A stretch of 64,000 nt of DNA from Xenopus tropicalis (taxonomy: Eukaryota; Chordata; Amphibia; Anura; Pipidae): contig NC_030686.2 in NCBI RefSeq assembly GCF_000004195.4, positions 45,894,961 to 45,958,960 of the forward strand. The letters run 5' to 3'. Below the pieces are notes generated by a model. It was given only the letters and a program-made list of their open reading frames with translations, searched no databases and had not been told where the DNA came from. Below are positions 21,263 through 63,427 of the stretch, in pieces (positions within the stretch are counted from its first letter, which is position 1; every line of letters begins with the position of its first letter). A program made the position numbers and the translations under genes.

Positions 21263-23334
21263 TACAGGAAGATCCCTTACCTGGAATATCCCAAGTTCAA
21301 AGTGTTCATGGTTAAATGATTCCCTTTTCTCTGTAATAATAAAACAGTACCTGTACTTGATCCCAACTAAGATATAATTACCCCTTATTGGGGGCAGAAC
21401 AGCCCTATTGGGTTTATTTAATGGTTAAATGATTCCCTTTTCTCTGTAATAATAAAACAGTACCTGTACTTGATCCCAACTAAGATATAATTACCCCTTA
21501 TTGGGGCAGAACAGCCCTATTGGGTTTATTTCATGGTTAAATGATTCCCTTTTCTCTGTAATAATAAAACAGTACCTGTACTTGATCCCAACTAAGATAT
21601 AATTACCCCTTATTGGGGGCAGAACAGCCCTATTGGGTTTATTTCATGGTTAAATGATTCCCTTTTCTCTGTAATAATAAAACAGTACCTGTACTTGATC
21701 CCAACTAAGATATAATTACCCCTTATTGGGGGCAGAACAGCCCTATTGGGTTTATTTCATGGTTAAATGATTCCCTTTTCTCTGTAATAATAAAACAGTA
21801 CCTGTACTTGATCCCAACTAAGATATAATTACCCCTTATTGGGGCAGAACAGCCCTATTGGGTTTATTTAATGGTTAAATGATTCCCTTTTCTCTGTAAT
21901 AATAAAACAGTACCTGTACTTGATCCCAACTAAGATATAATTACCCCTAATTGGGGGCAGAACAGCCCTATTGGGTTTATTTAATGGTTAAATGATTCCC
22001 TTTTCTCTGTAATAATAAAACAGTACCTGTACTTGATCCCAACTAAGATATAATTACCCCTTATTGGGGGCAGAACAGCCCTATTGGGTTTATTTAATGG
22101 TTAAATGATTCCCTTTTCTCTGTAATAATAAAACAGTACCTATACTTGATCCCAACTAAGATATAATTACCCCTTATTGGGGCAGAACAGCCCTATTGGG
22201 TTTATTTAATGGTTAAATGATTCCCTTTTCTCTGTAATAATAAAACAGTACCTGTACTTGATCCCAACTAAGATATAATTACCCCTTATTGGGGGCAGAA
22301 CAGCCCTATTGGGTTTATTTAATGGTTAAATGATTCCCTTTTCTCTGTAATAATAAAACAGTACCTGTACTTGATCCCAACTAAGATATAATTACCCCTT
22401 ATTGGGGGCAGAACAGCCCTATTGGGTTTATTTAATGGTTAAATGATTCCCTTTTCTCTGTAATAATAAAACAGTACCTGTACTTGATCCCAACTAAGAT
22501 ATAATTACCCCTTATTGGGGGCAGAACAGCCCTATTGGGTTTATTTAATGGTTAAATGATTCCCTTTTCTCTGTAATAATAAAACAGTACCTGTACTTGA
22601 TCCCAACTAAGATATAATTACCCCTTATTGGGGCAGAACAGCCCTATTGGGTTTATTTCATGGTTAAATGATTCCCTTTTCTCTGTAATAATAAAACAGT
22701 ACCTGTACTTGATCCCAACTAAGATATAATTACCCCTTATTGGGGCAGAACAGCCCTATTGGGTTTATTTAATGGTTAAATGATTCCCTTTTCTCTGTAA
22801 TAATAAAACAGTACCTGTACTTGATCCCAACTAAGATATAATTACCCCTTATTGGGGCAGAACAGCCCTATTGGGTTTATTTAATGGTTAAATGATTCCC
22901 TTTTCTCTGTAATAATAAAACAGTACCTGTACTTGATCCCAACTAAGATATAATTACCCCTTATTGGGGCAGAACAGCCCTATTGGGTTTATTTAATGGT
23001 TAAATGATTCCCTTTTCTCTGTAATAATAAAACAGTACCTGTACTTGATCCCAACTAAGATATAATTACCCCTTATTGGGGCAGAACAGCCCTATTGGGT
23101 TTATTTCATGGTTAAATGATTCCCTTTTCTCTGTAATAATAAAACAGTACCTGTACTTGATCCCAACTAAGATATAATTACCCCTTATTGGAGCCAAAAC
23201 AATCCTATTGGGTTTAATTACTGTTTAGATATTTTTTTAAGCAGACTTAAGGTAGGAGATCTGAATTATGGAAAGACCCCTTATCAGGAAAACCCCAGGT
23301 CCCGAGCATTCTGGATAAGGGGTCCCATACCTGT
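21263..23334. mobile_element. TIR element with internally expanded 112-bp array (second locus)
   Basis: The left end TACAGGAAGATCCCTTACC and the right end GGGGTCCCATACCTGT correspond to the ends of the 6568-7570 element. The right flank has GGAAAACCCCAGGTCCCGAG, also shared. The centre is an array of 17 units. The outer left part is shorter than in the other copy. Confidence 0.8.
21308..23220. repeat. 112-113-bp minisatellite, 17 copies
   Basis: GTACCTGTACTTGATCCC occurs 17 times from about 21350 to 23150, average spacing 112.5 bp. The unit is the same as at 6690-7425. Copies are almost identical, with only TTTAATGG/TTTCATGG, one G-count difference and rare point changes, so the array is young or homogenised. 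Confidence 0.96.
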
Positions 23335-23619
23335 TTCATAGACACCTAAGGGCCACCCTCCTAAAGCTGCAGCCCTAGAGAGGAGGAGGGCTGCGGTTGG
23401 ATAGTCCTTTGCAATAATACTTTTGGCCCCACAAGGGGTCCCTAGGATCAAAGCTACCACAGTGGGGGATATGTGAGCGTTCTATCAGTGACTTGGCGGC
23501 ACTGGGCACCCAGACATGACTGCCCTAGTAGGTCCGGGAATGTGATGGCCACCCCAGCAGGGAGGGGACCAGCTAAGTAGTATAGGGCCCATTATTTCTA
23601 AAATAATTCTCTAATAACA
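23335..23619. other. Intergenic spacer
   Basis: Mixed-composition DNA upstream of the CpG-rich block; no repeat ends or coding signal. Confidence 0.4.
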
Positions 23620-31782: not shown

Positions 31783-33620
31783 CTACAAACAGATCTTATA
31801 ATGGGGCCCAGTGCGAACAGTCCCTCCTCTCCTGTCCCCCTTCTGGCCCACTTCTGTTGCACCTACCAGGCCACAACACGCCATGCCGGTATTTAAAAAA
31901 AAAAAGGGATTGGGGAAGAGGGGCTGTTATACAGCATGATCCGGGGGGGCTCATTTGCCCCAAGAGACCTGTTTAGGTTATTAGTTACAATTGTATCTGA
32001 GTGCAGGTGTTGAGTATTCTGGGCTTAAAACCTTACTTATCTAATTAAGTGTGAGAAATCAAATTAACTATGCAGGAAATCAAAGGGAAGTGAGAAAGAA
32101 TGTGGGCTGTGGGCTGAGCTGTTAAAATCGGGACTGTCCCACGAAAATCAGGCCAGTTGGGCGGTTAAAGTTATACATGTATCTTACATGGGAGTGCGGC
32201 TGTGAAAGCAGCTTGTAGTCTAAGCATATGTCCTGTTCCTTTGCCTGCCCACTGTAAGTGTAAGCCCCCCAGAGTGTGCACGTATGTGTGTTTTGGGGAA
32301 CTTTCTACTGATACCTTTTAACATTTAGAGCATGTAACCTTTTAAAGATCAAAGCTGTAGCTCCTTCCTCCCCACTCGTTGCTACAAAACAAGAAAACAT
32401 TTTATTAGAAACCCTTAATTAACTTGTTTTTGTGCTGAAAAATGTACTCACTGCGGTACTTTAGCACCTCCCATACTATACAAGACCCTAATCCGCCCCA
32501 AACCCCATCTGTGGCACCTACAGTAGCCTAGAACACCTGTACAAGGTATGGGGTTTTCACTGCTGTGTCTGTACCTCTGGGCTGGCAGCAGGAGTTACTG
32601 TATTTAATAGTAGGGATATTGGTGCAGGACTAGTACAGAGCTGGTTGGAGAGACTTTATTACTGGTCAAGTAAGGGCAGTTGACAGCATATTTTGCATCT
32701 TCTACAAACAGATCTTATAATGGGGCCCAGTGCGAACAGTCCCTCCTCTCCTGTCCCCCTTCTGGCCCACTTCTGTTGCACCTACCAGGCCACAACACGC
32801 CATGCCGGTATTTAAAAAAAAAAAGGGATTGGGGAAGAGGGGCTGTTATACAGCATGATCCGGGGGGGCTCATTTGCCCCAAGAGACCTGTTTAGGTTAT
32901 TAGTTACAATTGTATCTGAGTGCAGGTGTTGAGTATTCTGGGCTTAAAACCTTACTTATCTAATTAAGTGTGAGAAATCAAATTAACTATGCAGGAAATC
33001 AAAGGGAAGTGAGAAAGAATGTGGGCTGTGGGCTGAGCTGTTAAAATCGGGACTGTCCCACGAAAATCAGGCCAGTTGGGCGGTTAAAGTTATACATGTA
33101 TCTTACATGGGAGTGCGGCTGTGAAAGCAGCTTGTAGTCTAAGCATATGTCCTGTTCCTTTGCCTGCCCACTGTAAGTGTAAGCCCCCCAGAGTGTGCAC
33201 GTATGTGTGTTTTGGGGAACTTTCTACTGATACCTTTTAACATTTAGAGCATGTAACCTTTTAAAGATCAAAGCTGTAGCTCCTTCCTCCCCACTCGTTG
33301 CTACAAAACAAGAAAACATTTTATTAGAAACCCTTAATTAACTTGTTTTTGTGCTGAAAAATGTACTCACTGCGGTACTTTAGCACCTCCCATACTATAC
33401 AAGACCCTAATCCGCCCCAAACCCCATCTGTGGCACCTACAGTAGCCTAGAACACCTGTACAAGGTATGGGGTTTTCACTGCTGTGTCTGTACCTCTGGG
33501 CTGGCAGCAGGAGTTACTGTATTTAATAGTAGGGATATTGGTGCAGGACTAGTACAGAGCTGGTTGGAGAGACTTTATTACTGGTCAAGTAAGGGCAGTT
33601 GACAGCATATTTTGCATCTT
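31783..33620. repeat. 919-bp direct tandem duplication, two copies
   Basis: Copy 1 spans 31783-32701 and copy 2 spans 32702-33620. Every position that I compared, including an 11-A run, is the same. The junction TTTTGCATCT|TCTACAAACAG shows 2-bp microhomology. The sequence includes a GGGGCCCAGTGCG repeat word and no gene; its two identical short open frames are not genes. Confidence 0.95.
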
Positions 33621-34601
33621 TACTGGAAAAGCAGAAAGAATAAGAAAGCTGGTAGATGATATATATATATATATATATATAAGCTCAGACTGGACGTGAT
33701 ATACATTATTTTGTATGGTTTTCATGCACAAAATGTGTAATGTGTGGTTTGTCTATACATATTTCTATCTTCACTTCCTTCCTTGCACCACAGACCTGCA
33801 CAAGAAAGCTCTTCTGCACGCGGCCAGGAATACTGGGTAGAACTTTTTAATTTCTCACCATGAAATCTGCCCACTTCCCTCACTTTAAACTGATATATTT
33901 GTCTGCATTTATCTTTAGGGTTCTGGTCATTTAGCCTGTCCCCAGAATGGCCACAATCCCATATTCCTTCCCTCAGACTGGCTGCTGTGCTGGATACAAG
34001 CTCAGCACAAGGTGCAAATTGCAACCTCTGAGGGAGACACAAATTTGGGGGGGAAGAGTAGGGGTGGGATGGCTACATGTCTCTTGCCCATAAATACTAT
34101 AAGGTACATAACTGAGCATACAGGCATATATACATTGGGCAGTCACAGAACGCAGAGACCTGCAGCCAGTAACTCTATGGTGTGGTTTTCTCTCTCAAAC
34201 CCTCCCTCACCCCATCACTGCCCTCTTGCACCCAAGTAGGAGAGCAGCTACAGGGGGGAATCCCTTAACTACAGTGGAAGCTGATTCCTCGCTCTGGGGC
34301 CCCCTGTCCCCCAGATCCTACCATGACCAAAGGGTTTGCTTCCAATGAACTTGTGCCAATGCCTGCAGCAATTCAGGGCCCCAGAGAAGGCAGTGTGCAA
34401 AGTGCTTGGGAGTACATCAGAGCTTTGTGGGGTCCAATGAGTGTTATTAATGTTGGGCTCCAGATTTTGCGGACCCAAACCTATGGTGAACCGAGGCTTA
34501 TTTAATTGTGAAAGCATATAAGTATTTAGTTTATTGCAGTTTTAAACTAATATATAACAGGCACTGAAGGGACACATGTAGCTGTACCCAGCACTTTACT
34601 G
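33621..34601. other. Intergenic; (AT)n at 33658-33681
   Basis: Apart from the dinucleotide run, no repeat ends or coding exons are recognised. Short open frames on both strands at 33722-34517 have no domain. Confidence 0.45.
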
Positions 34602-38893: not shown

Positions 38894-41800
38894 TTAGAGA
38901 AGGTGCTTAGTGGTGTCATTTGCCTCACAAGTCATTGAAATATATGTATTATAAGGATGAATGTTTCTTCTTCTGTACAAATATAAGGGTATTAAATTCA
39001 CATTAGAGTCCCATGGCCTGTATAAAGTCACTTGGCCTCCTCTTGTTTTCACAGTCATGGAATCCTCAGTGGTTTTTATATCCTTATGGTTTACAGTAGG
39101 GGATTCATTATTCTCTGCATATTGAAAAGCAATTTTTCTCAAAGTAGAATCATTAGTACCTGTATTTCCACACAGATATAAAGAGTCTTCTTACTTAATT
39201 GAAACAGTTTGGTTGTTTTGTTTTGTATTTCTAAAGTACAACATTGCTTAATGTTCTGGTTATGGCTTTACTGAAACGGTTGGACATTATTAAGTTAGAG
39301 AGGGTCCAGAGAAGGGCAACTAAGCTGGTAAAGGGTATGGGAAGTCTCAGTTATGGGGAAAGACTGGCCAAGTTGGGTCTGTTTACACTGGAGAAGAGGC
39401 GCTTAAGAGGTGACATGATAACTATGTATAAATATATAAGGGGATCATATAATAACCTTTCTAATGTTTTATTTACCAGTAGGTCCTTCCAACGGGCACA
39501 AGGGCACCCACTCCGTTTAGAAGAAGGGAGGTTCCATTTAAATATTCGGAAAGGGTATGTTACAGTGAGAGCTGTGAAGTTGTGGAATTCCCTCCCCGAA
39601 TCAGTCGTGCTGGCTGATACATTATATAGCTTTAAGAAGGGGTTGGATGGATTCTTAGCAAGTGAGTGAATACAGGGTTATGGGAGATAGCTCTTAGTAC
39701 AGGTTGATCCAAGGACTGGCCATCAGGAAGGAATTTTTTCCCCTCTGCGGCAAATTAGAGAGGCTTCAGATGGGGTTTTGCCTTCCTCTGGATCAACTAG
39801 CAGTTAGGCAGGTTATATATAGGCATTATGGTTGAACGTGATGTCTTGAACGTATGTCTTTTTTCAACCCAACTTACTATGTTACTTTTCTATCACATTG
39901 GGGGATTGCTGTTTCAGCCACTGATTTGGTTGGAGTGAAAGACTACTTTTTTCTGCCACTGACAGAAAGATTCAGGCTTTTTGCCTTGTTTTATATAAAC
40001 TTAAGGCTTAATTATAATTAAGTAAGAAAGGAGTTAAGCTTGATAGACTTGGGTCTTATTTTCAACCTAAGCTATGATGTTACTATTTGCTAAAGAAAAG
40101 TACTTACATAAATCTTGTATACTGCAAATATCAGAACGGGTAGGTACATTAAAATGACAACCGGCAAGATCACATGAAGATTTTCCCCTTTGTTGGAATC
40201 TGATGCTGCAAAAAGAGAGAGATTTTTTAAATCATAGTGATGTGAATTGTAATTTGCATTGTTAGTATAATGCCTAGCCTGCATGTAAGAAAACTATCCC
40301 ACTTGTGGGTATTTCTTGTGAATTTAATAAGGGAAATAGGGGTGCTCTATATATTTACTGAGAAACCAGGAATAGCCTATGGCAGGGAAAACCAAGTGCG
40401 GGCTGCCTGCCACTTTCTTATTGCAGAACATAAACAGTGTTGATGATATTAAATGATCCCCTGAGTTTGGTACTTACCGCTACTGGAATTATTACACGGG
40501 GCAGTAACCGCCACACTCAGCACAGTCCATTTTCCGCAGAGGTCTTTGTTGTCAGGCCCGATACCATCACACAGGTAAAAACCCGTGTCCTCTTCTGTGA
40601 CATTTTTTATGGTTACAGTGAAATTGTTCACGTTCCCATATAAATTTACACGTGTGTTGTTATTGTAAACGAAAGCTTTACTTTTTGAATTGACAAACAA
40701 CATTTTAGTGAACCGATTTCGTAGGTTTACTCCTTTTACATTTTCTGTAGCAATGCAGCTAATGCTGGCTGTCCCCCCAGGCTGAATAAGGATGTGCCTT
40801 GGATGTTGGTTTATACCACCTGGAGCAGATTCTGAAAAGTAAAAATAAATTAAAAAATGTTAGACTTAAATTTGAGTATATTTTGCTCCCTTCCCAGTAT
40901 TGACTCTGCTGGCTGTAATACAGCAAATTATAGGACTAAATCTCTCTCCCTTCAACCTCACAGCAATCTCGGGTATAGTAATATCATGTAGCATATATAC
41001 TACAGCAGCACGGCATGCCAAGCACCCATGTCTACATGACCTTAATAATCCCTATTTATGGTATATATATATTTACGCAATATACTGTATTCTCATTCCT
41101 CCCTGCAGGGGCAGGGGCCTATTTTTTTCCTTAATTTTAAAAGGTATGCAATCATTACCACATTATACACCCCAGTCCCCAGAGCAGTAAATTGGAAACG
41201 GGGGGAAGTGCCGAACACAAATCTGCCCCTGTATACGGACAGGCTCTGTTTCCAGCTGCAATGTGTACAACACAGGGTAAGCATACGAGAGGCCATCTCT
41301 CTGAATATGCCTTAACTGGAACAGGGAATAAAACCTTTCCTGCCTGTCCCACATATAAATTCAAATTTTTGGTTGTCAGGACCAAGGATCCCTGACTGCA
41401 GACTAGGAAATCGATAATTTATGCTATACATCAGGGGTCCCCAACCTTTCTTATTCGAGAGCCACAGTCAAATGTATAAAGACTTGGGGAGCAACACAAG
41501 CACCATAAAAGTTAATGGAGGAGCCAAATAAGGGCTGAGATTGGCTATTAGGGGCCTATATGCACCCTATCAGCTTACAGGGGCTTTATTTGGTAGGAAA
41601 TCTTGTTTTTATTCAACCAAAACTTGCCCCCAAGTCAGGAATTCAAAAATAACTCCCTAGCTTTGGGGCACTGAGAGCAACATCCAAGGGTTTGGGGAGC
41701 AACATGTTGCCCCTGAGCCACTGGTTGGGGATCACTGCTCTGCATTGTTTCACTCTGTGTATAAAGTGCTGTCTGTTCTACAGTCCCACTAATCTGCTGC

Positions 41801-43283: not shown

Positions 43284-44738
43284 CTAGACTAGCCAGGGCT
43301 GGATGGGATTCATCCCAGGGTATTAAACGAGCTTAGCGCTGTGATTGCCAAGCCTCTTCACTTAATTTTTCAGGATTCGTTGAGGTCTGGCATGGTGCCG
43401 AGAGACTGGCGGATTGCTAATGTGGTGTCATTATTTAAAAAGGGATCCCGTTCTCAGCCTGAAAACTATAGGCCTGTTAGTCTGACATCAGTAGTAGGAA
43501 AGCTTCTGGAAGGGGTAATAAGGGATAGGGTACTTGAATACATTGCAGTTCACAATACTATTAGTTTGTGCCAGCATGGTTTTATGCGTAACAGATCTTG
43601 CCAGACTAATTTAGTCGCCTTTTATGAGGAGGTGAGTAGGAACCTTGATGCTGGAATGGCAGTTAATGGGATCTACTTGAACTTTGCTAAAGCGTTTGAT
43701 ACAGTACCTCACAGACGGTTAATGATCAAATTGAGGAATATTGGCCTAGAACAGAGATCCCCAACCTTTCTTACTCGTGAGCAACAGTCAAATGTAAAAA
43801 GACTTAGGGAGCAACACAAGCACCATAAAATTTCATGGAGGAGCCAAATAAGGGCTGTGATTGGCTATTAGGGGCCTCTATGCACCCTATCAGCTTACAG
43901 GGGCTTTATTTGGTAGGAAATCTTGTTTTTATTCAACCAAAACTTGCCCCCAAGTCAGGAATTCAAAAATAACTCCCTGGTTTGGGGTCACTGAGAGCAA
44001 CACCCAAGGGGTTGGGGAGCCACATGTTGTCCCCGAGACACTGGTTGGGGATCACTGGCCTAGAATATAATATTTGTAATTGGAAAGAGAACTGGCTGAA
44101 GGATAGATTACACAGAGTGGGGGGAAATGTTAGTGGAGTACTGCAGTTAGTGTTGTTAGGGGAGTACTGCAGGGGTCAGTCCTTGGCCCTTTGCTTTTTA
44201 ACTTGTTTATTAATGACCTGGAGGGGGGCATAGACAGTACTGTTTCTATTTTTGCTGATGACACTAAATTGTGCAAAACTATAAGTTCCATGCAGGATGC
44301 TGCCGCTTTGCAGAGCGATTTGACAAAATTGGAAAACTGGGCAGCAAACTGGGAAATGAGGTTCAATGTGGCCAAGTGCAAAGTTATGCAACGCACCAGA
44401 GGCCCCCCCTTTAGATTAGAGGAACTGAGCTTCTATTTGAAGCAGCGTCAGGGGGTTCCTCACGGGGAGGGCAGTGAGGTTGGGGAATGCCCTTCCTAGT
44501 GATGGAGTAATGGCAGATTCTGTTAATGCCTATAAGAGGGGCCTGGATGAGTTCTTGAACAAGCAGAATATCCAAGGCTATTGTGATACTAATATCTACT
44601 GTTAGTATTAATGTTTGTATATATAGTTTATGTATGTGAGTGTATAGATTGGTAAGTATAGGTTGTGTGTGCTGGGTTTACTTGGAAGGGTTCAACTTGA
44701 TGGACTCTGGTCTTTTTTCAACCCTATGTAACTAGTGG
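43284..44738 (+). pseudogene. CR1-like LINE reverse transcriptase, internally deleted and interrupted
   Basis: Fragments in order: N-terminal fingers (WRIANVVSLFKKG, ENYRPVSLTSVVGKLLEG), QHGFMRN, palm motif A (FAKAFDTVPHRRL), a hAT insertion at 43752-44057, then palm motif B/C (GVLQ... FINDLEGG, FADDTKLCK) and a thumb-like piece (LENWAANWEMRFN), then a jump to the C-terminal region and the 3' UTR ending TTTTTTCAACCCTATGTAAC. Catalytic D (motif A) and DD (FADD) are present, but frameshifts and deletions make it dead. It lies just upstream of CD7-like gene 1, antisense to it. Confidence 0.88.
43752..44057 (+). mobile_element. hAT-type MITE inside the LINE, perfect 8-bp target duplication
   Basis: Ends CAGAGATCCCCAACC and GGTTGGGGATCACTG fit the hAT CAGNG...CNCTG form. 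GCCTAGAA flanks it at 43744-43751 and 44058-44065. This copy defines the family in the window. Confidence 0.93.
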
Positions 44739-46204: not shown

Positions 46205-46659
46205 TGTGGTTTCACTGGTTACTATATCAGCCTTCACACCTCTGGGTATTTCCCCACCCTCGCTTACTGATAGGACAGAAAAAATTAATCCAATCAACAA
46301 CCTTATAAGGTTCCCCCCCCCCATTAGCCCCTTGTCTTTTTTCTGTCCTCGCTTTTAGGGTGTTTGGATGCAATATTTTTATATTGTGGCTCACATGGAC
46401 CCATATTTGGGATCCCATACCCTGGAAGTTGGCCTCTCTTCCTGGTAGGGCTATGCAAATTGTATTTCCTCTCAGAGGAGGTCAGCTGGCCAGCCCCGTT
46501 ATTAGGCAGCCCGGGGTTGTTATCTTGTTAGCTCCGTGTCGGAATCATTCAGTTGGAGCAGTATACACACATTACCTAGGTCACAGACCAGGTTTTGGGC
46601 GGCACTATTAGGTTAGGGCTTCTTTTTCCTAACTCCCCAGCGTCTTACCTTATTTCTAG

Positions 46660-46960
46660 CTGGCGTTTGAGTGAATCCGGAAGTGCCGGGTGCTGGACGT
46701 GATGCGCCGCCGACGTCACTTCCGGGTTTGCGAGACGCCAAGAGTGGCGGGAACGCGGAGCAGTTAAAGGGGGCTTTTTGCTGACGCGCCCCCCTCTTCT
46801 GAGCTCCCTCCCTCATGAAAGCCCTGCCTTTGTGCCCCCTCTGCTGAGCTCCCTGTGGCTGAACCTTACTGCCGGATCGTTCTGTGAGACTGCTGGGGAA
46901 GTCCCCTCTGCTGTTAAGGTACCTTTTAAAGTTCTGTTTGGTGAGCACATTATTTTGTGT
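46660..46960 (+). promoter_or_regulatory. GC-rich presumed promoter of the DIRS element
   Basis: Within the left untranslated part, GAATCCGGAAGTGCCGG and GCCGACGTCACTTCCGGGTT give two ETS-type CCGGAAGT sites and a palindromic CRE (GACGTC) within 70 bp. The block ends with candidate splice donors (GTTAAG|GTACCT near 46917, TTTG|GTGAGC near 46939) before the gag start. Confidence 0.4.
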
Positions 46961-46997
46961 TCACAGAGGTGGTTAGCAACTTTCTTCTTTTATTTAG

Positions 46998-48230
46998 ATG
47001 ACATCTAATCTGCAAGTGCCTAGTAGCCCAGATAATGCTGCCAGTGATATTAGGAGGTGAGCCACTTTGTAGGTAGGTGTTTTGGTGCTAAATCAAAAAG
47101 AGTGCAAAAACTTAAGGGTATTGTCTGTTTATTATTTTTTTTTTTTTTAGTGTGCCTACCCCTAGTCAATTTCTAAACAAAAGCGGCTTGTGATAATCCA
47201 GCATTAAAACATTCTAAATTGTGTGAACGATGTACTAGAAGATTAGCAGGAGATGCTGCAGCTGATACAGCTGATGTCATGAGATGGATTAGAGATGCTG
47301 TAGCAGAAGGTGTAAATATGGCAAAACGCTCTTCAGAAAAACAGAGATTTGGAGAATTGTTGGCAACTTGGGGAAATAATATCAGATCACCGGAATCTTA
47401 TTCTATGGCAGATTCTGAGGAAGAAGAGAGCTTTCAGGAAGAACGTACGTCATCTTTTGATGTAGCTCTCATAGAACTTTTGATTAAGGCAGTAAGAACA
47501 CAGGTAGAACTACCGGAGAAGTCAGAACAGCAGCCCTCTTCGTCAAATCTCTTTAAATATTTAAAAAAGGAAAGAGTTACTTTTCCCTTACATGAAGTGA
47601 TCAGGGAAATTGTGGTCAGAGAGTGGGAGAAGACGGACGCGAAGTATCCTATTCCACCAAGAGTACAGAGGTACTATCCTTTTGCAAAAGAAGAGGAATT
47701 AATCTGGGATAAGCCTCCAAGAGTGGATGCAGCAGTCTCCAGACTATCTAGAAAGACTCTCCTGCCAGTGGATGATGTGGTGTCATGTATTAATCCTATG
47801 GATAGGATGATGGAAGCGTCGATAAAGAAAATACACTTAGCGTTGGGAGCAACCTGTAGACCAGCTTTGGCTCTCACCTCAGTATCCAGGGCGATGCAAA
47901 TGTGGATGCAAAATGTTGAATCCGCACTCAGAGAGGGTGTGGACAGAAGGAAGATTATTGAGGCTTTGGCAGAACTGAAGTTAGCCACAGAGTTTGTGGC
48001 AGAAGCATCAGGATTTGGTCCGTTCCTCCGCTAAAGCAATGGCTCTTTCAGTGGCAGCAAGAAGGGCCATGTGGCTGAGAGCATGGGATGCGGACAAAGC
48101 ATCCAAGATGAATCTATGTAATTTACCGTTTGAGGGTCGTATGCTTTTTGGAGTGAAGTTGGATGACATTATTAAAAGAGTGACAGGAGAAAAAAAGTGT
48201 ATTTTTACCACAAGAGAAAAAAGCATTTAA
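46998..48230 (+). pseudogene. DIRS gag-like gene, with candidate intron
   Basis: An ATG at 46998 follows a polypyrimidine-AG acceptor. The short first exon runs to 47056 and a 94-nt candidate intron spans 47057-47150 (GTGAGC...T-run-TAG). After a frameshift near 47175 comes a C-x2-C cluster (KLCERCTRR) and the long frame 47219-48034. It carries PRVDAAVSRLSRKTLLPVDD and CRPALALTSVSRAM, hallmarks of vertebrate DIRS gag. The frame moves +1 near 48003, and SAKAMALSVAARRAMWLRAW continues to 48230. Frameshifts make it non-functional. Confidence 0.8.
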
Positions 48231-48429
48231 AGTATCAAGTTTCGGAGTAGACAGAACTTCCTTTCGAATAAGGTTACATCTGCAGAGCAGAGGCAATTCA
48301 GACCTTCAAGGCAGTTCAATCAATTGACCCAATGGAGAGGGGGACAAAATTCACTGTTTAGAAGCTCTAGAGGCAGAGGAACAGCAGGAAAGCCGTCAAA
48401 AATGTTCTGAAGGCGAGGCAGTCCAGACT

Positions 48430-49629
48430 TTAAAAATACCCGGAAGATTGAAACACTTCTTAGAAGTCTGGACAAAGTCAATCACAGATCGTTGGGTATT
48501 GCAGACACTAAGTCAGGGTTATTATCTGGGATTCAAGAAGACTCCACGACACAATCACTTCATAATCTCAAACATTCCTTCTCGAGCAGAACACAAGAAG
48601 ATTTTAATCCATTATGTTCAGCAACTGTTGGTAGATGGAGCCATTCTACCTGTGCCCCTAAGGTTTCGGGGGCAAGGAATTTATTCAACTCTCTTTATGC
48701 TGAAGAAGAAAACAGGGGAGTTTCAACAGTACAAGACTGGGATCAGACAATATTCATGAAAGCCCAGGTCAGGAAGGAGCTGAAGTGGTGGCTGATAGAA
48801 AAAAATCTAAGGAAGGGCCATTCGTTGACGGAGACAATTTGGGAGATCCTTACGACAGATTAGAGTCCTTCGGGATGGGGAGCCCATCTGAAAAGAGAGT
48901 ACCGCCAGGGACTGTGGACGAAGGAAGAACAGAAGCTTCCTGCCAATATCTTGGAGTTGAGAGCGGTATGGAAAGCGATTCAAGTTTTCAATTATCATCT
49001 GTGAGGTACATCATTATTAGTGAAGATGGACAACAGAGCGGCAATTTCTTACATAAAGAAGCAGGGAGGAACTCACAGTCTGAGTCTCATGACAGAGTTA
49101 CACCCAATTCTGAGTTGGGCGGAGAAGAATCTACAGGAGATATCAGCACTGCATTTACCAGGGAAACAGAATGTGGTAGCAGATTTTCTAAGTCGAAATT
49201 TGATAGGCAGACACGAGTGGGAACTGAATTTGGAAGTGTTTGCACAAATCGTGAGAAGATGGGGTCTTCCGAAGGTAGACCTGATGGCCACCCCAAACAA
49301 TTGTAAAGTGAGGAAATTCTTCTGAAATTCTTCTGGAATTCTTCTGAAGGGCAGTGGATGCCCTTCAGCAGAATTGGAGTCACGGACTGCTCTACATTTT
49401 TCCTCCAATACCGCGAGTACTGAGGAAGATCAGGAAGGACAAGGCCAATGTCATTGCAATTATTACAAATTGGCCAAGGAGAAATTGGTTCCCAATGTTG
49501 AACCTAATGAGCATTCAGGAACATTTAGCCCTAGATCACAGAGAAGATTTGTTGAATCAGGGGCCAGTAAGACACCCCAATCCACACATATTTTGCCTCT
49601 CTGCTTGGAGGCTGAAAGGAACAGGTTAA
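48430..49629 (+). pseudogene. DIRS reverse transcriptase-RNase H, palm deleted
   Basis: 48448-48730 encodes the RT N-terminal region (WVLQTLSQGYYLGF, IPVPLRFRGQGIYSTLF-like, LPVPLRFRGQG here). The frame then jumps to the segment after the palm (VRKELKWWLIEKNLRKG at about 48770), so the catalytic palm with its Y-x-D-D box is missing. RNase H follows in frame 3: TTD at about 48855, WGAHL, LELRAVW, KMDNRAA and VVADFLSR give all four acidic positions, but a TAG directly after TTD and a TGA near 49001 interrupt it. 49325-49360 has a three-copy AATTCTTCTG stutter with a frame change, after which PRVLRKIRKDKANVI continues. Confidence 0.82.
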
Positions 49630-49778
49630 ATAAGGAAGGGATATCAGAAGCAGTAATAGAGACTAGTCTATCAGCTAGGAAGTTTTCAACCAACAAGACG
49701 TATAACAGAATTGGAAAAGTTTTTTTGGAATGGCTGTCTGCGAGGAAAATAGATTCTGACCAACTTTCTGTATCTCAA

Positions 49779-50585
49779 TAGAATGTGTGATGTGGTATAT
49801 ACAATACCAAATCCTCAGCACTCCTTAATCGAAAGTGTTCAATCAATAATAGTGAATATGTGATCTTGCTGCTCCTCCTCAGGTCACCCCTTTGACTGGG
49901 TCTCAAACGTGTATAGAAAATTGTGGCGGGAGCGCATATATAAAAATGAAAAACAAAACAAAAATAATGCAGGATTGCTTAATACGTTTAGCTAAAAAAT
50001 GAAACTCAATCACCAAATAGAAGTGTGACAGGCTGTTTCACTTAGTATAAATCACCAAGTGTTAGAGTACCAAATGCTCGCCAGATGGCGATCATTAGTT
50101 GGCCAACAGTATATCCCAAATGGAATTGCAGCTGTATCCTCCTCGTGTATGGGCACAAAGGGAAGAAAAAGCGGCAGATGGTGCAAAATCATTTATTAAC
50201 ACGATAAAAGAATAAAAAATCTACTTACAAGATGTAGATAATATACAATCTCTCAGAAACTCGACGCGTTTCGCGTACTAACGGTACGCTTCATCAGGAG
50301 TTTTACAGTATGGCCCCTAGAGACCCCTTTATATAGCCATGCAGTGTGGGGTAAGTGCCCATCCTCCTACGTAAGTGTGTGTCCCACACTTATGACATCA
50401 CTCTTCTGAGTGAACGCTGCCCTTACTAAACATGAGCGCAATAGCGCTGCCCACAAAGGGGTTGTAACACCAATCAGCCACTCAATGCTTGTGTTTCTAA
50501 TAATAGGGTATGTACCCACGTATTAAGCAATCCTGCACTATTTTTGTTTTGTTTTTCATTTTTATATATGCGCTCCCGCCACAAT
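49779..50585 (-). mobile_element. 807-bp ribozyme-bearing retroelement inserted in the DIRS recombinase
   Basis: It is flanked by a 14-bp direct duplication TTTCTGTATCTCAA (49765-49778 and 50586-50599), length typical of target-primed insertion rather than a DNA transposon. Inverted arms about 70 bp long (49917-49987 and 50518-50588, GGCGGGAGCGCATATATAAA) enclose the middle. A hammerhead ribozyme lies on the minus strand at 50257-50303. No protein frame is present, so it is non-autonomous. Penelope-like elements and retrozymes are the known carriers of such ribozymes. Confidence 0.8.
50257..50303 (-). ncRNA. Hammerhead ribozyme (Penelope/retrozyme type)
   Basis: Reading the minus strand: stem I 5' half AAACTC (50303-50298), conserved CTGATGA (50297-50291), one extra A, stem II GCGTAC with loop CGTTA and GTACGC (50289-50273), conserved GAAA (50272-50269), a minimal stem III made of palindromic ACGCGT (50269-50264), cleavage triplet GTC, then stem I 3' half GAGTTT (50262-50257). 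All stems pair perfectly and the catalytic core is intact. Cleavage is predicted between 50263 and 50262. The very short stem III suggests activity as a dimer. The single extra A between CTGATGA and stem II is a departure from the textbook core. Confidence 0.85.
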
Positions 50586-51805
50586 TTTCTGTATCTCAAG
50601 TCTTAGAATCCTGCAAGCAGGCTTTGACAAGGGTCTAAGTTTAAGAACTCTAAAGTTGCAAGTTTCAGCTATCTCAGCATTGACAGGCATACGTTGGGCC
50701 AAAAATCAGAATGTGGCAAAATTTATAACAGGAGTTTTGCATCTCAGACCCCCAGAGAGGGTACTTTCAGCTACGTGGGATCTGCCCCTGGTCTTGCAAG
50801 CACTAACAAAAATACCCTTTGAACCTATTGAGAGCATATCAGAGATGATGCTATCAATAAAAACTGTTTTTCTAACAGCAGTTACTTCAGCCAGGAGAGT
50901 GAGTGATCTTCAAGCGCTATCATCAGAAGCGCCTTTTACAGTTATTCAACCTCATCAGGTATTATTAAGGCCTGTTTCAGGATACCTTCCAAAGGTAGTC
51001 TCTGCCCTTCACATGAATCATGAGTCGGTACTGCCGGCTTTTTTTCAAGACCCAACATCAGAGCAAGAAAAGGTTTGTCATACTCTGGATCTTGTCAGGT
51101 GTCTGTCAACTTATTTGTCAAGATCCAAAGGATGGAGAGAATCGGACAGATTATTCATTATTCCAGAAGGCAATAAGAAAGGCCAGGCGGCCTCAGTAGC
51201 TACGATAAGTAGATGCTTACCAGACAGAAGGACAGCAGGTTCCAAAAGGGGTTAAGGCACACTCCACAAGGGCATTAAGTGCGTCTTGGGCGTTTAAGGC
51301 GAATGGCACAGTGGATCAAGTTTGCAGATAGGCTTCATGGATGGCAGCCAAGACATTTTTCAGACCATGTTAATCTGGTTTCCTCAAAAGATTGTAATTT
51401 TGGGAAAAAGATTTTGGAGGCAGTTCAATTCGCTAAGGAATAAAATATTAGCATCTATTTCTGTGTTATTTTTCCCACCCCTTCTGATTGCTAAGGTACT
51501 GACCCAGAGGTGTAAAAGCTGCCATAGTAACCAGGGAAAACTGAAAATTTTTGCCATACTTACCGTAATTTTAGTTTCCTGGTTACTATAGGCAGCATTC
51601 ACACCAAACCCTCCCCAGATTTAGCTCGGACTTAAAGACAAGGGGCTAATGGGGGGTGGGGGGGGGAACTTATAGGGTTGTTAATTGGATTAATTTTTTC
51701 TGTCCTATCAGTAAGCGAGGGCAGGGAAATACCCAGAGGTGTGAATGCTGCCCATAGTAACCAGGAAACGAAAATTACGGTAAGTATGGCAAAAATTTTC
51801 CGTTA

Positions 51806-54285: not shown

Positions 54286-54989
54286 CTGATCAAGCTTACC
54301 TAGTTTTTACCTTTCCTTCTTTAGGACTTGTCCCCTCTTTGGGACTCTCACCTTCCAGGGTAATCTTCTCACTCTTGGTTTCTCACAATCCCCAGTTTCA
54401 CACATTCACGGTGACTCTCACACTCGTTAAGACTCAGGCTTCTCACTCTCCACTCATGCCTCTCTCTACTCCTTGCAGTGGCAGGCAGCACCCCAGACCC
54501 TTGGAGTTCCTAACACAGACAGGTAGTCTTTCTGCTCTGAGCCCATAGGTGTGGGAGCACACCACTTTTACCTCTACAGGCAGCTCCTGATTATTACTGA
54601 TAATTACTGAGAAGGAATATTAACCCTATCTGCACTAGGAATCCCCCTGCAGTCTGCATCATGCACCTCAAACACACATTTTGCCATATATTTCTAGGTA
54701 AAACAGTTGTTATATAAAGAGCTGTGACAAAATGTGAGGATCCTGACGGTCTGCTATATCCTCTCTTTTACTGTAGGTGGCAGTGCTGTCCAGGCATTTG
54801 TTCTCACCTGCCATGGGTGCTACCTCATATTTTCTTTCTGGGAATAAACTATATATGATATAAATATAAACACAAAGAAAATGGCAGCAATCAAACAGGG
54901 TGAGGAATAGTACTGAGTAAGTGATTGGCCAAGGCTTATAAGAGGAACAATCACAAGAGAATGCAGATTCATGTATTTTCAGCATTAAC
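54286..54989. other. Intergenic, no feature
   Basis: Pyrimidine-rich at 54300-54500; nothing else recognised. Confidence 0.4.
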
Positions 54990-55415
54990 TTAAAGGAACA
55001 GTAACACCAAAAAATAAAAGCTTTAAAGTAATAAAAATACAGTATAATGCACTGTTGCCCTGCACTGGTAAAACTGGTGTGTTTGCTACAGTAACACTAC
55101 TATAATTTATATAATAAGCTGCTGTATAGCCACGGGGGCAGCCATTCAAGCTGGAAAAAAGGAGAAAAGGCACAGGTTACATAGCAGATAACAGACAAGT
55201 TCTGTAGAATACAATAGTGTTTTATCCGTTATCTGCTATGTGCCTGTGCCTTTTCTGCTTTGAATGGCTGCCCCCATACTACACAGCAGCTTATTTATAT
55301 AAACTATAGTAGACTTTCTGAAGTAAACACACAACTTTTACCAGTGCGGGCAGCAGCACATTATATTTTAGTTACTTTTATACACTTTCATTTTTTGGTG
55401 TTACTGTTCCTTTAA
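54990..55415. mobile_element. Palindromic T2-type MITE on TTAA
   Basis: TTAAAGGAACAGTAACACC at the left and GGTGTTACTGTTCCTTTAA at the right are perfect inverted repeats that include TTAA. Inner pairs (AGCTGCTGTATAGCC / and GGGGGCAGCCATTCAA / TTGAATGGCTGCCCCC) show that the two halves are inverted copies. Confidence 0.88.
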
Positions 55416-56029
55416 GGAAGCCCTGTGTGCCACCCCCTTTACCTGGTGGTGGGATAGAAATATTGAGGCTTTTGGGGGGTAACGGTATGATAGGTAAAGA
55501 AACTTAATGAGTATTGGATAGGGTGTTCATCAGTTTTACGCTACTGTGAATGTGCACAGCTCAGGGCAGGCACAAGGAATTGATGGGGCAGGAGGCAAGA
55601 TGGCACCTATCCACTTACTGGAATTGTGCCCTGGAAAGTGTATTTTTTCTCTAAAAAGGAGCACCAGTCTGGGGTGTGAGATTTGCTTTTGTAATCACTG
55701 GAAGGTAACCTTTCATTCTCCTTTAACTATATCTCCTATTGCTGTATGATGGTTTCTGAACCATAATCATCCATGTTAATAGGTACAGATTTTTTAATCC
55801 CTTGTAGTCCTGGTAATATTTGCAATTTAATTTATATACATTCTACAAAAATAGAACAGAACCTGCTTTTGTGCGTTACCAAACCTGAAGAAGAAGAGAA
55901 GGGATCTGTGGCCTGGAAATGTGTTTAATTCAGAAAACTTGCATAAATGTATTAAATTCCTTTAGTTTGTACTACATTTTCATATCTCTCCCCACCCTTC
56001 TAATTGTTCAGAGGAATAAGGTAAGTGCA
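55416..56029. other. 3' flank of CD7-like gene 2; possible 3' UTR
   Basis: On the minus strand this follows the gene 2 stop. 55885-55920 on plus (ACCTGAAGAAGAAGAG ... GGAAATGTG) looks like a decayed hammerhead-type element end. I could not place the polyadenylation site with confidence. Confidence 0.35.
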
Positions 56030-59000: not shown

Positions 59001-62000
59001 GATTCTTTACGAATTTTTCGGATCCAATACGATTTTTGCGTAAAAACGCGAGTTTTCCTATCCATTACGAAAATTGCGTAAAAAGTTGCGCATTTTGCGT
59101 AGCGTTAAAACTTACGCGAAAAGTTGCGCATTTTTCGCGTAAGTTTTAACGCTACGAAAAATGCACAACTTTTTACGCAACTTTCGTAATGGATACGAAA
59201 AACTCGCGTTTTTACGCAAAAATCGTATTGGTAACGAAAAATTCGTACAGAATCCGAAAAAATCGCAAAACATACGAAAAAGTCGCAAAATGTTCGTTTT
59301 CAAGTCGGAACTTTTCCAATTCGGGTCGGATTCGTGGGTTAGTAAATCAGCCCCTAAAAGTTAATCTCAAGGTGAACAACCCATTTAAGGGTGCACTGAT
59401 TTTAGCTTCCTCTTGTAGAAATGGGCGTTTTTTTTTAGAGTCTAACTACACACAACAATCTCCACTCACCTTTACCTATACCGGGGCATTCGGCTGCAGA
59501 AAGCACTGAGATAAAAGTCCCACCTCCACAGAGTTTTTCATTTGAACCGATTAGATCTGCATCACACATGTAAATATCCGAGTCATCCGTCGTCAGATTT
59601 GTTAGCGTCACTGTAAAATCCCGACTCCACCCCGACAATAACAGACTTTGCCTGTAATCTGGTTCCTTGCTGGTTGTATTGGTTTTATTAATATATATTA
59701 TTTTCCTGAAACGCCTCAGTAGATGCACCCCATGGATATCCTTTTCCGACGTGACTTGGCACGTAATACTGACAGATCCTCCTGGCAGAACTACAGCAAA
59801 TTGTGGAGTTTGCCTTATACCAATAACTGAATTTTCTGAAAAGGAAAATGGCAACACTTGTTTACTCAAAATAAGTACAAAAAAACATTAATTCTCCAGC
59901 ATAGTTATTTAGTCACTGCTCCATGCCGTACAGATAGCTGTGTCTGTCACTCCCAAATGCCCATTGGCTCCCAGCACTCATTTGTTAATGACATGCTGTG
60001 AGACAAAAGTGCATTCGGTTTTCAGTACCTACAGGGTAAAAAAAAAATTAAAAAAAAAATGACCGCACCCATTTTTGTGACTGCACCCCCTAAATACCAC
60101 TCCCATTTTACAAAATTTGGGTTTTGGGGTCTTGCTTTATGTGTTTTCAAAAAATTGTTTCTAAGGGGCCCATTCATTAAACCACGATTTTTCGCCAATT
60201 AAAAGCACGATTGGAAAAAATTCAGAGTAACCACGATAATTTCTGATGTGCGAAAATTACGCATAAATTCTTTTTTTGGTCATACGATCCAAAAGTCACA
60301 ACATTTTTATATCCGAATGATCGTAAATGACGCAAAAACCTTTCTGGCTTTAAACTTCAATGCATGATTTTGGAAGCCTCCCATAGGGCTCAATGGCACT
60401 CTGCAGCTCCAACCCGGCCCAAGGAAAGTCTCCCATAGGGCTCAATGGCACTCTGCAGCTCCAACCCCCAAGGAAGTCCCAAGGCTCAATGGCCTCTGCA
60501 GCCCAACCCGGCCCAAGGAAGTCTCCCATAGGGCTCAATGGCACTCTGCAGCTCCAACCCGGCCCAAGGAAAGTCTCCCATAGGGCTCAATCGGCACTCT
60601 GCAGCTCCAACCCGGCCCAAGGAAAGTCTCCCATAGGGCTCAATGGCACTCTGCAGCTCCAACCCGGCCCAAGGAAAGTCACCCATAGGGCTCAATGGCA
60701 CTCTGCAGCTCCAACCCGGCCCAAGGAAAGTCTCCCATAGGGCTCAATGGCGCTCTGCAGCTCCAACCCGGCCAAGGAAAGTCTCCCATAGGGCTCAATG
60801 GCACTCTGCAGCTCCAACCCCCGGAAAGTCTCCCATAGGGCTCAATGGCGCTCTGCAGCTCCAACCCGGCCCAAGGAAAGTCTCCCATAGGGCTCAATGG
60901 CGCTCTGCAGCTCCAACCCGGCCCAAGGAAAGTCTCCCATAGGGCTCAATGGCACTCTGCAGCTCCAACCCGGCCCAAGGAAAGTCTCCCATAGGGCTCA
61001 ATGGCGCTCTGCAGCTCCAACCCGGCCCAAGGAAAGTCTCCCATAGGGCTCAATGGCGCTCTGCAGCTCCAACCCGGCCCAAGGAAAGTCTCCCATAGGG
61101 CTCAATGGCGCTCTGCAGCTCCAACCCGGCCCAAGGAAAGTCTCCCATAGGGCTCAATGGCGCTCTGCAGCTCCAACCCGGCCCAAGGAAAGTCTCCCAT
61201 AGGGCTCAATGGCGCTCTGCAGCTCCAACCCGGCCCAAGGAAAGTCTCCCATAGGGCTCAATGGCGCTCTGCAGCTCCAACCCGGCCCAAGGAAAGTCTC
61301 CCATAGGGCTCAATGGCGCTCTGCAGCTCCAACCCGGCCCAAGGAAAGTCTCCCATAGGGCTCAATGGCGCTCTGCAGCTCAACCCGGCCCAAGGAAAGT
61401 CTCCCATAGGGCTCAATGGCACTCTGCAGCTCCAACCCGGCCCAAGGAAAAGTCTCCCATAGGGCTCAATGGCACTCTGCAGCTCCAACCCGGCCCAAGG
61501 AAAGTCTCCCATAGGGCTCAATGGCACTCTGCAGCTCCAACCCGGCCCAAGGAAAGTCTCCCATAGGGCTCAATGGCACTCTGCAGCTCCAACCCGGCCC
61601 AAGGAAAGTCTCCCATAGGGCTCAATGGCACTCTGCAGCTCCAACCCGGCCCAAGGAAAGTCTCCCATAGGGCTCAATGGCACTCTGCAGCTCCAACCCG
61701 GCCCAAGGAAAGTCTCCCATAGGGCTCAATGGCACTCTGCAGCTCCAACCCGGCCCAAGGAAAGTCTCCCATAGGGCTCAATGGCACTCTGCAGCTCCAA
61801 CCCGGCCCAAGGAAAGTCTCCCATAGGGCTCAATGGCACTCTGCAGCTCCAACCCGGCCCAAGGAAAGTCTCCCATAGGGCTCAATGGCACTCTGCAGCT
61901 CCAACCCGGCCCAAGGAAAGTCTCCCATAGGGCTCAATGGCACTCTGCAGCTCCAACCCGGCCCAAGGAAAGTCTCCCATAGGGCTCAATGGCACTCTGC

Positions 62001-63427
62001 AGCTCCAAACCCGGCCCAAGGAAAGTCTCCCATAGGGCTCAATGGCACTCTGCAGCTCCAACCCGGCCCAAGGAAAGTCTCCCATAGGGCTCAATGGCAC
62101 TCTGCAGCTCCAACCCGGCCCAAGGAAAGTCTCCCATAGGGCTCAATGGCACTCTGCAGCTCCAACCCGGCCCAAGGAAAGTCTCCCATAGGGCTCAATG
62201 GCACTCTTCAGCTCCAACCCGGCCCAAGGAAAGTCACGATACAGAAGCAACATTACCGGTGATGTTGGCTTGCACACTATAATAAATATGCCCCTACCTG
62301 TAACCTGGGATAGTTTGGCCTTGTGGTGAAGGCCATTTGTATTGGATCAAATAATAATGCCTTTTCCTCCAGACTCAAATGGAGGTCTCTGGGCCTCTGT
62401 TCTTTCCTGTGTTCCCAAATTATTGTTTTAAACTTTCTCTAATGTATTTATGTATTAATGTTCTCTCAAGTGCCTCTTCTCTGGAGAAAACATTTAATAG
62501 GATCTATGTAGTGGAATTAGGGCTCTTACACATGGATTTCTCCAGAATTCCACCGCAGGGGAGCGCAGGACAAAACACAACCTAGTCTTCCTAATTGACC
62601 TGTACTGACACAGACCATACCTCCCAACTGTCCCAATTTTAACAGCTCAGCCTGCAGTCCCGGATTCTAACTGAAAAGTCCCTCATTTACCTTTCATCTC
62701 CTGCACTGAATGCCAAAAAAAGATACAAAGTTTCTCAAATTTAATTAAATCAGTAGCTTAACAAACTTAAGAAGCAACCCCTGCACTATATATTTTATTA
62801 TAATTTTTATAATATTTTATTAATTGTAACTAATAAGCTAAACAGGTCTCTTGGGGGAACTAAGACTAGCAACTTAAAGGCCAATTTAACCTTTTTTAGC
62901 AAAACTGTAATAACACATAAAACAAGACCCGAAAACCCCCAGAAATGTGTTCAAACTTTAAATGGCCTGCCAAATTTTGTAAAAATGGGAGTGGTATTTA
63001 GGGGCATGGTCGCAAAAAAATGGGAGTGGTCCAAAAAATGTTGCCACGCTACATGCACCATTTCTTTTAGTCCCTCTTTACATTTTTCAAATGTTGGTAG
63101 GTATGACACAGACTAAGGCTACAGCCTGGGTGCAGCCACACGAAGCGGATTTCAGCGCCAGAGAGTGTGAGTATGTATTTCACACTGAAATCCACTCCAC
63201 CTGTCTGCACCCAGGGCACCCATCTGTCTTTCACCCTTCTGCAGGTGAAATAATCACAGTATATCCAAGTAATTTCCCCTATTCCAGTTGTTTTCTCCTT
63301 TAACATGTACATTAACATTCTGCTAATGGATTTAATGAGATGAAAGTAGTTAGTAATACATACCAGTGAAACAGTTTGCTGAAGCCAGCGAGAAACTGCA
63401 GACGTGCAGCAAAAGGAGAAGCAACAT
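56030..63427 (-). CDS. cd7: CD7-like single-V-set immunoglobulin receptor with YMDM tail (gene 2)
   Basis: Coding exons read on the minus strand are 63427-63364, 59835-59470, 57714-57620 and 56152-56030, giving 648 nt and 215 residues. All junctions have GT/AG sites and matching phases (1, 1, 0). Residues 1-21 are a leucine-rich signal peptide. Residues about 23-138 are a V-set domain with Cys47 and Cys112, extra cysteines at 124 and 138, N-glycosylation sites (NKT, NTT, NLT) and no strand-C tryptophan (HLLRRF instead). Residues 151-175 are the membrane helix. The 40-residue tail carries YMDM at 192-195, then TLTRRNTMS. Human CD7, as I recall it, has V-Q-Q-S-P before the domain and a tail of YEDMSHSRCNTLS, so both ends align. 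CD7 is a T/NK-cell surface receptor whose YxxM motif recruits PI3K; the same role here is inference. The tandem neighbour at 38894-43078 has the same exon plan. A CD28-family origin is the main alternative, but the MYPPPY motif is absent. Confidence 0.78.
56461..57417. mobile_element. TTAA element in intron 3 of gene 2, with nested MITE
   Basis: TTAAAGGGGACCTGTCACCC and GGGTGACATGTCTCCATTAA form the terminal repeats. The element at 56815-57322 interrupts it. Confidence 0.7.
56815..57322. mobile_element. Palindromic MITE with TACCGTATTTTTCGG ends
   Basis: TACCGTATTTTTCGGACCAT and GGTCCGAAAAATACGGTA are perfect inverted ends. A large inner palindrome (56906-57018 against 57019-57126) has arms with CGTGTGGTCTCCGCAGGGCC and ends in a CGCATGCGC core. 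The right end shows a duplicated GGTGCGTCTTATGGTCC. Confidence 0.8.
57867..58160 (+). mobile_element. MITE of the GTGTATGGCCACC family in intron 2 of gene 2
   Basis: GGTCATACAAGCACCAATAG to ACGTGTATGACCACCTTA, with the same internal order as the 26015 copy (GACGAGACGACCGATATCGC, GGGCTGAATCGTCAGG). Confidence 0.7.
58512..59388 (+). mobile_element. T2-type MITE split by a palindromic Harbinger-type MITE
   Basis: The left part begins CTAAAGGGGTGGTTCAAC and carries the whole family order up to CTACATCATACTAA; the last 34 bp (AAGTTAATCTCAAGGTGAAC and on to TTTAA) follow the nested element. Confidence 0.78.
58896..59354. mobile_element. 459-bp near-perfect palindromic MITE, TAA target duplication
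   Basis: GGGGCTGATTTACTTACCCA and GGGTTAGTAAATCAGCCCC are the ends. TAA is duplicated (58893-58895, 59355-59357), which suits PIF/Harbinger. Almost the entire element is one hairpin, with runs such as TTACGCGAAAAGTTGCGCAT near the centre (about 59115). Confidence 0.85.
60164..62295. mobile_element. TIR element with an internally expanded 52-bp array, intron 1 of gene 2
   Basis: AGGGGCCCATTCATTAAACC on the left and AATAAATATGCCCCT on the right are imperfect inverted repeats. The left unique part (CACGATTTTTCGCCAATT) is typical of Xenopus MITEs with CGATTTTTCG words. The interior is the 52-bp array. Confidence 0.6.
60372..62236. repeat. 52-bp minisatellite, about 36 copies
   Basis: The unit is GGAAAGTCTCCCATAGGGCT plus CAATGGCRCTCTGCAGCTCC plus AACCCGGCCCAA. 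The first units (60372-60640) have indels, later ones are almost uniform. A CGCTCT variant dominates from about 60750 to 61380 and a CACTCT variant elsewhere. Periodic open frames on both strands are artefacts. It lies in intron 1 of CD7-like gene 2. Confidence 0.97.
62616..63105. mobile_element. hAT-type MITE with perfect 8-bp target duplication, intron 1 of gene 2
   Basis: CATACCTCCCAACTGTCCC at the left and AATGTTGGTAGGTATG at the right; ACACAGAC flanks it at 62608-62615 and 63106-63113. Related pieces occur at about 32115, 38460-38590 and 60056-60145. Confidence 0.88.

Follow-up and report, generated by a model that had tools for sequence, protein, structure and literature searches.

The window (the whole stretch of 64,000 nucleotides of Xenopus tropicalis DNA analysed here) contains an older retroelement split by an insert of 807 bp, which carries on the minus strand a small hammerhead ribozyme motif (table 1). 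The insert is flanked by an exact 14-bp repeat and lies antisense to the reading frames of its host element, the inverted ends of which pair 46209-46339 with 51634-51769. When the insert is left out, its flanks align gap-free over 287 residues to an X. tropicalis UniRef protein (P0001) that is named 'Core-binding (CB) domain-containing protein'; the join used for this alignment is one base longer than the exact duplication, the exact join being off by one frame, and we take this offset for a later one-base loss. The frames of the host element have no Pfam match, so that we can only infer that it is DIRS-like. As to the insert itself, we found no long reading frame in its 807 bp, no protein relative for one read-through frame and no tRNA, while an inverted match between 50518-50593 and 49912-49987 covers 76 nt (97%) and extends into the target duplication.

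Table 1. Features of the insert, its ribozyme motif and the host element, in positions of the window
Feature	Position	Strand	Remarks
Minimal type I hammerhead ribozyme	50257..50303	-	Found by pattern, descriptor and covariance model
Stem I, 5' strand AAACTC	50298..50303	-	Inner 4 bp conserved across other copies
Core CTGATGA	50291..50297	-	C3 = 50297, G8 = 50292
Extra A, between A9 and stem II	50290	-	
Stem II, GCGTAC (50289-50284) / GTACGC (50278-50273), loop CGTTA (5 nt)	50273..50289	-	
Core GAAA	50269..50272	-	
Palindrome ACGCGT in place of stem III	50264..50269	-	Would form stem III only when two copies pair
Stem I, 3' strand GAGTTT	50257..50262	-	50262 is the first base past the predicted cleavage site
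Probable PLE fragment, 807 bp: pLTR + tail, inverted piece at 5' end	49779..50585	-	
Target-site duplication, left copy TTTCTGTATCTCAA	49765..49778	.	
Target-site duplication, right copy	50586..50599	.	
Inverted partial copy of 49920-49987, 5' end	50518..50585	+	
Palindrome GGGTACATACCC, head-to-head junction	50506..50517	.	
Tail	49779..49919	-	Only in copies ending at the distal 3' site
AATAAA 3' of ribozyme	50192..50197	-	Inside a block aligning well among relatives
TATA-box-like TATATAAAG	50327..50335	-	38 nt 5' of C3, 32 nt 5' of the first ribozyme base
Older host retroelement, inverted ends + recombinase-like frame	46209..51769	+	Split by the insert

Direct reading of the minus strand from 50303 to 50257 gives AAACTC-CTGATGA-A-GCGTAC-CGTTA-GTACGC-GAAA-CGCGTC-GAGTTT, in which the CUGANGA core, the GAAA and the NUH triplet (here GTC) that define type I hammerheads are all present. 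C17 corresponds to 50263, with cleavage predicted between this base and 50262. The initial annotation had described a type I hammerhead with two perfect 6-bp stems, CTGATGA, GAAA and GTC, and both its letters and its positions are correct: the hammerhead sequence at 50257-50303 is real. A canonical closed stem III is absent, ACGCGT being too short for a stable hairpin. The window has a single match to the core pattern, and 100 shuffles have none. A structural descriptor demanding at least 5 bp in stem I, at least 4 bp in stem II and no more than 10 nt replacing stem III also has a single match in the window, against none among 433 simulated windows that share the dinucleotide make-up of the real one; when the stem III stretch is allowed to reach 59 nt, the same simulated windows yield five matches. 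In viral and prokaryote collections, the core pattern was matched 0, 16 and 16 times (32 in total), never with both stems of at least 4 bp; of the nearest matches, one (L028) combines a stem II of 5 with a stem I of 3 and no UH triplet, and another (L017) a stem II of 6 with a stem I of 1.

A search with the Rfam hammerhead models, which had been proposed as a check, came out empty at three scales: no hammerhead was reported at the motif with the gathering score, and no hammerhead model matched at E ≤ 10 either on 1.7 kb or on 101 bases. Such a miss would be expected of models relying on a closed stem III and, since these models miss the window copy, Rfam-based annotation would miss it too. 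A covariance model (R1) built from 28 of 48 distinct genome copies, selected by ourselves and excluding the window copy, finds the motif as its sole match in the 64 kb with 64.1 bits and an E-value of 8.5e-17, the E-values of such custom models being rough.

The genome (1.45 Gb) was then searched with a pattern demanding the extra A and a stem II beginning with GCG, which is matched at 198 places (88 forward, 110 reverse), whereas the identical pattern without the extra A has no match genome-wide, as is also the case for a reversed control pattern. The additional A ahead of stem II, listed earlier for this core, is indeed present, but the ratio of 198 to none indicates that it is not a local blemish: judged from the genome copies it is a family trait, at least where stem II starts with GCG, and relatives located through DNA similarity carry it too. 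In a viroid hammerhead an extra A in the same place moderately lowers the rate of trans-cleavage, according to the passages available from PMC3705267.

From 68 loci we obtained 86 motifs, which reduce to 48 distinct ones when compared over 6 + core + 2 + 6 nt; together with the window copy these form an alignment (A1) of 49 rows. Little can be learnt from the letters of the core or, for the majority of rows, from stem II pairs one to three, as the search pattern dictates them. Over all 12 pairs of the 49 distinct motifs, double-changed cells number 33, against 13.8 (sd 2.6) after shuffling and a value never as high in 500 trials, and 83.4% of the cells are paired, against 79.0 (sd 0.8) and again never reached in 500; the count of further pair types, a weaker measure of covariation, is 22 against 18.9 and was equalled in 25 of 500. 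Slid pairings score lower than the true pairing by every measure. In the same 49 motifs stem II is paired in 95.5% and stem I in 71.4%, the lower figure arising because the outer two pairs of stem I are not conserved. The 6-bp stem I of the initial annotation is perfect in the window, but only its inner 4 bp are kept in genome copies, and the two outer pairs of the window look incidental. Uncompensated stem changes as a rule, which had been put forward as grounds for refutation, were looked for and not found, even if some genome copies do have broken stems, as single cases; on the evidence of this alignment, both hammerhead stems covary across copies.

The core, too, has a compensated pair. 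In the nearest large group of relatives, TTGAGAA replaces CTGATGA, so that C3 becomes U and G8 becomes A together and a known pair is kept as U-A. Among 37 model hits, in which some places are counted twice since L131, L132 and L133 overlap earlier loci, 28 have U3-A8, six C3-G8, two a gap and one, a weak hit, A/U, with no single change; the 22 distinct model-aligned rows divide into 13, 6, 2 and 1, respectively, most of them being close relatives, so that the change to U3-A8 may be one event. Natural hammerheads with U3-A8, as well as in vitro activity of such pairs, are reported in the accessible part of PMC3088659. Copies of the U3-A8 group range from several that are 99-100% alike to others at only ~81%; this lineage, which has conserved stems and some recently amplified members, includes L102, L103, L109-L111, L116-L119, L125, L129, L130 and others. 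In eight representatives of this group, which we selected, column identity is 94.6% for the motif minus its loop versus 81.1% for the rest, and none of 425 equal-length stretches is as conserved. These values favour selection on the motif in a recently spread lineage. Among the relatives found by similarity, 19 of the 22 distinct model-aligned rows keep G5, A6, A9, G12 and A13.

To which kind of element does the motif belong? A DNA search with the insert returned at least 53 genome matches, including the window, with 40 of 233 candidates scored. The alignments of relatives end at two 3' places, around insert positions 659-682 and 795-807, and many others end at position 727, between the two, or earlier. 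By eye, in 11 loci and the window, divergence sets in at the proximal place in L033, L037, L065, L074 and L095, and similarity extends beyond it in L038, L067, L100 and the window; within the insert, the main copy reaches as far as the distal place and the inverted piece stops at the proximal one. An optional tail consistent with two start sites of reverse transcription is thus seen among the relatives, though the endings at 727 fit neither site. One relative (L104) has the same arrangement as the insert, with a 14-bp repeat of its own, the left copy of which lies 15 nt outside the aligned arm. In three other loci (L131, L132 and L133), related terminal repeats, in inverted pairs, flank six reading frames, five of which have a domain match: two RVT_1 frames above the curated cut-off and no GIY-YIG match in L132 (E 6.9e-08 and 1.2e-07), a GIY-YIG frame above the cut-off (E 1.3e-05) and an RVT_1 frame under the curated one (E 0.0016) in L131, and one RVT_1 frame under the cut-off (E 0.00039) beside a frame without match in L133. 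In one other branch, there is a GIY-YIG match in L099 (E 9.2e-05) and an RVT_1 match under the cut-off in L098 (E 0.01).

In the excerpts of PMC3846280 at our disposal, Penelope-like elements (PLEs) are described as having pLTRs in inverted orientation and short target duplications, with palindromes where inverted parts meet and a tail that is optional; the available sections of PMC11167929 explain the tail by two internal start sites of reverse transcription, with both target strands cut and extended. The insert shows such features, among them the target duplication and the inverted partial copy at its 5' end. Since its relatives flank reverse transcriptase and GIY-YIG frames, and its anatomy is PLE-like, we read it as a fragment of a PLE pLTR. 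The link to Penelope-like elements, first raised from the window alone, has accordingly gained from the covarying stems, the insert anatomy and the frames beside related terminal repeats. A short stem III is a trait of the minimal PLE variant of the hammerhead, which the motif fits in this respect and in its place within a PLE pLTR. Very probably, then, it is a minimal, dimer-type hammerhead of an X. tropicalis PLE, and the locus a pLTR fragment with a 14-bp target duplication. The pattern of conservation among copies further suggests that this PLE motif has been kept by evolution.

The ends of the copies bear upon where the RNA of the element begins. A survey of 87 upstream stretches of 80 nt (the 86 copies and the window) gave 38 TATA-like motifs, 26 at 37-42 nt upstream of C3, none nearer and 12 farther; because the copies are related, the 26 placements are not independent cases, even if several dissimilar upstream sequences have, by eye, a common spacing. 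The standard spacing of TATA boxes would place the start of transcription about 7-12 nt upstream of C3. Copies without the TATA-bearing upstream part diverge at about this point: in the commonest subfamily, 6 of the 16 copies have that part; compared with a TATA-bearing copy (L060), nine of the remaining ten match only for 3-12 nt upstream of C3 and one for 28. Many copies in this intact-motif sample begin about 3-15 nt 5' of the core, not at the cleavage site. Seven head-to-head pairs have C3-to-C3 distances of 14-44 nt and mirrored arms reaching 2, 4, 4, 6, 8, 11 and 15 nt upstream, and the mirrored arm of L104 reaches 9 nt by eye. The 68 loci contain 18 pairs of adjacent motifs, of which 16 are head-to-head, two direct and none tail-to-tail; nearby places were mostly fetched together, and thus the number of pairs, not their orientation, depends on our choice. 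With two of the 18 on the same strand, partners in cis are uncommon in the sample. One direct pair (L064) consists of two different motif types: at 3368-3407 of its minus strand, 388 nt from the standard motif, there is a very short hammerhead-like motif with a stem II of 3 bp by our count and stem I letters that differ from the standard ones.

Alignments of the relatives of the insert start at 282-284, the first bases of the ribozyme, in L104, L113 and L125, and in many others at 213-218 or 125. A single alignment (L106:1501) starts at insert position 324, the first base past the predicted cleavage site; a search for a target duplication there gave only a 7-nt repeat of chance size, and this copy may derive from a cleaved RNA or from chance truncation. 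Because the motif search requires an intact ribozyme, copies beginning at the cleavage site escape it, and their number cannot be read from it. Crude scripted classes of 131 stretches from the 68 loci comprise 86 with the motif, one with part of it and 44 in which the projected place lacks it, 23 of the latter starting inside the query and 21 being labelled as having no hammerhead; by eye, 17 of these 21 match one rearranged query, and one stretch (L044:852) resembles a decayed motif. No clear copy starting at the cleavage site was recognised among the 131 stretches. From these ends we infer that, for sampled copies whose 5' end is clear, the template was in most cases an RNA left uncut at this site, and the positions of TATA motifs and copy ends suggest that the motif is located where the RNA of the element is expected to begin.

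In mechanistic terms, the pLTR fragment would have integrated antisense to the frames of the host element, generating the 14-bp target duplication. With a start predicted from TATA spacing and copy ends, a pol II transcript would begin about 30 nt 3' of the TATA box, at or just upstream of stem I, so that the PLE RNA would open with the ribozyme. Two ribozymes, supplied by the two pLTRs (5' and 3') of a single transcript or by separate RNAs, might then join by their ACGCGT palindromes and cut after GTC. Action as a dimer, part of the original proposal, fits the predicted folds: the monomer reaches -14.3 kcal/mol with part of the core mispaired versus -11.5 with the core open, whereas an active-like dimer (-30.3) lies 1.4 kcal/mol above the most stable dimer (-31.7). 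Minimal PLE hammerheads are reported to act as dimers, according to a review passage and to the title of Lunse 2017. The isolated window copy, whose insert has no reading frame and which lacks a second ribozyme to pair with anywhere in the 64 kb, is probably inert.

Many sampled copies start near the site predicted from TATA spacing with their ribozyme uncut, while the motif is still conserved. A rival reading would be that the hammerhead fold is kept mainly for a job other than cutting, for instance template pairing or binding of the PLE protein, cleavage being incidental. Where the 5' end of a sampled copy is well defined, it mostly lies upstream and the ribozyme is whole, and hence the template was not cut there; in addition, catalytic mutants of an anole PLE hammerhead had no effect on insertion in vitro, as stated in the available part of PMC11167929, stem III is palindromic and seven head-to-head junctions lie within a few nt of the motif. 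We nevertheless consider this reading unlikely, because the five core residues intact in 19 of 22 rows and a C3-G8 pair that is never singly changed fit selection for activity, while the intact-motif sample is blind to starts at the cleavage site, of which L106 may be one. It is also conceivable, though distinctly improbable, that the ribozyme doubles as a pairing device for 5' ends: PLE RNAs starting a few nt upstream of the hammerhead would join in twos via the palindromic stem III, and two cDNAs, one primed by each of the cut target strands, would end adjacent to each other and become joined head-to-head. If true, this would explain head-to-head PLE insertions with several junctions near the motif, as well as the keeping of a fold whose cutting, when too early, would destroy the template.

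Returning to the reading as a PLE fragment, it has to be weighed against two other kinds of mobile DNA. The initial annotation had also mentioned retrozymes, and the insert could be imagined as a non-autonomous one spreading via small circular RNA, since the type I hammerheads of amphibian retrozymes are weak and perform better in dimeric form (PMC7229834, in the passages at hand). This link is unsupported: the window contains no second unit, tandem or second hammerhead, the relatives flank PLE-type frames, and the inverted 5' piece, the two 3' ends and the tail agree with what the available descriptions of PLEs contain, so that we regard a retrozyme as highly improbable. Inverted arms of 76 nt, 97% complementary, might instead recall a fold-back DNA transposon carrying a hammerhead by chance. 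The position of the target duplication leads us to reject this reading, to which we give almost no credence: the target repeat adjoins one arm only, the other arm being internal and 133 nt from the other end of the insert, and the relatives have the pLTR body in common, several of them (e.g. L102 and L109) without such a paired arm.

Minimal type I hammerheads of PLEs are said to have been described by Cervera and de la Pena in 2014 and by Lunse, Weinberg and Breaker in 2017. The X. tropicalis motif shares with them the core, stems I and II, the lack of stem III in the monomer, the place in a PLE pLTR and the expected action as a dimer; it may differ from them in the extra A that precedes stem II throughout the Xenopus family. 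Hammerheads in interspersed repeats of X. tropicalis have been reported in PMC3088659, the seen passages of which match our case in species, repeat association and U3-A8 core covariation, while including neither PLE assignment nor insert anatomy nor a relation to transcription start. Both PLEs and X. tropicalis repeats are hence already known to contain hammerheads. Poseidon PAc of Anolis carolinensis, as portrayed in the available sections of PMC11167929, similarly has a hammerhead near the start of its reading frame, two internal starts of reverse transcription that lead to an optional tail, and cutting and extension of both target strands; the PAc frame starts at stem II, whereas in the Xenopus insert the frame of the overlapping ATG closes after 13 codons, and the tail is of 30-40 bp there versus about 140 nt here. 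In the same sections, cleavage by the anole PLE ribozyme was seen only with the PLE protein. The main text of the bdelloid rotifer Penelope paper (PMC3846280) has no occurrence of the word hammerhead, and in titles and abstract openings of the papers listed on Xenopus hammerheads and PLEs, in a library that lacks most subscription papers, we found neither a relation to the start site nor a U3-A8 PLE lineage.

PLE hammerheads are known, and those of this genome may serve as a fossil record of RNA ends. Conservation of the motif extends even to a core pair whose change is compensated, in a lineage that amplified recently, and whether and when cleavage is used can be addressed through maps of copy ends and RNA ends.

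Other repeats and coding remnants surround the locus in the window. Broken reverse transcriptase frames (RVT_1) at 43293-44499 appear to be of LINE type, and at 54989-55416 two 32-nt inverted repeats (97%), separated by 364 nt, probably delimit a MITE-like element. Two separate tandem arrays with a unit of ~113 bp, ~96% alike and 14 kb apart, lie at 6674-7570 and 21305-23335, a direct duplication of ~923 bp, 99.9% identical and end to end, at 31783-33623, and an array with a ~52-bp unit at 60372-62235, in a GC-rich stretch. V-set immunoglobulin exons are present on the minus strand at 40449-40859 and 59435-59887, the latter 97% identical to an X. tropicalis protein, with a next best match of 89% to another protein of the species that is named CD7-like in one source.
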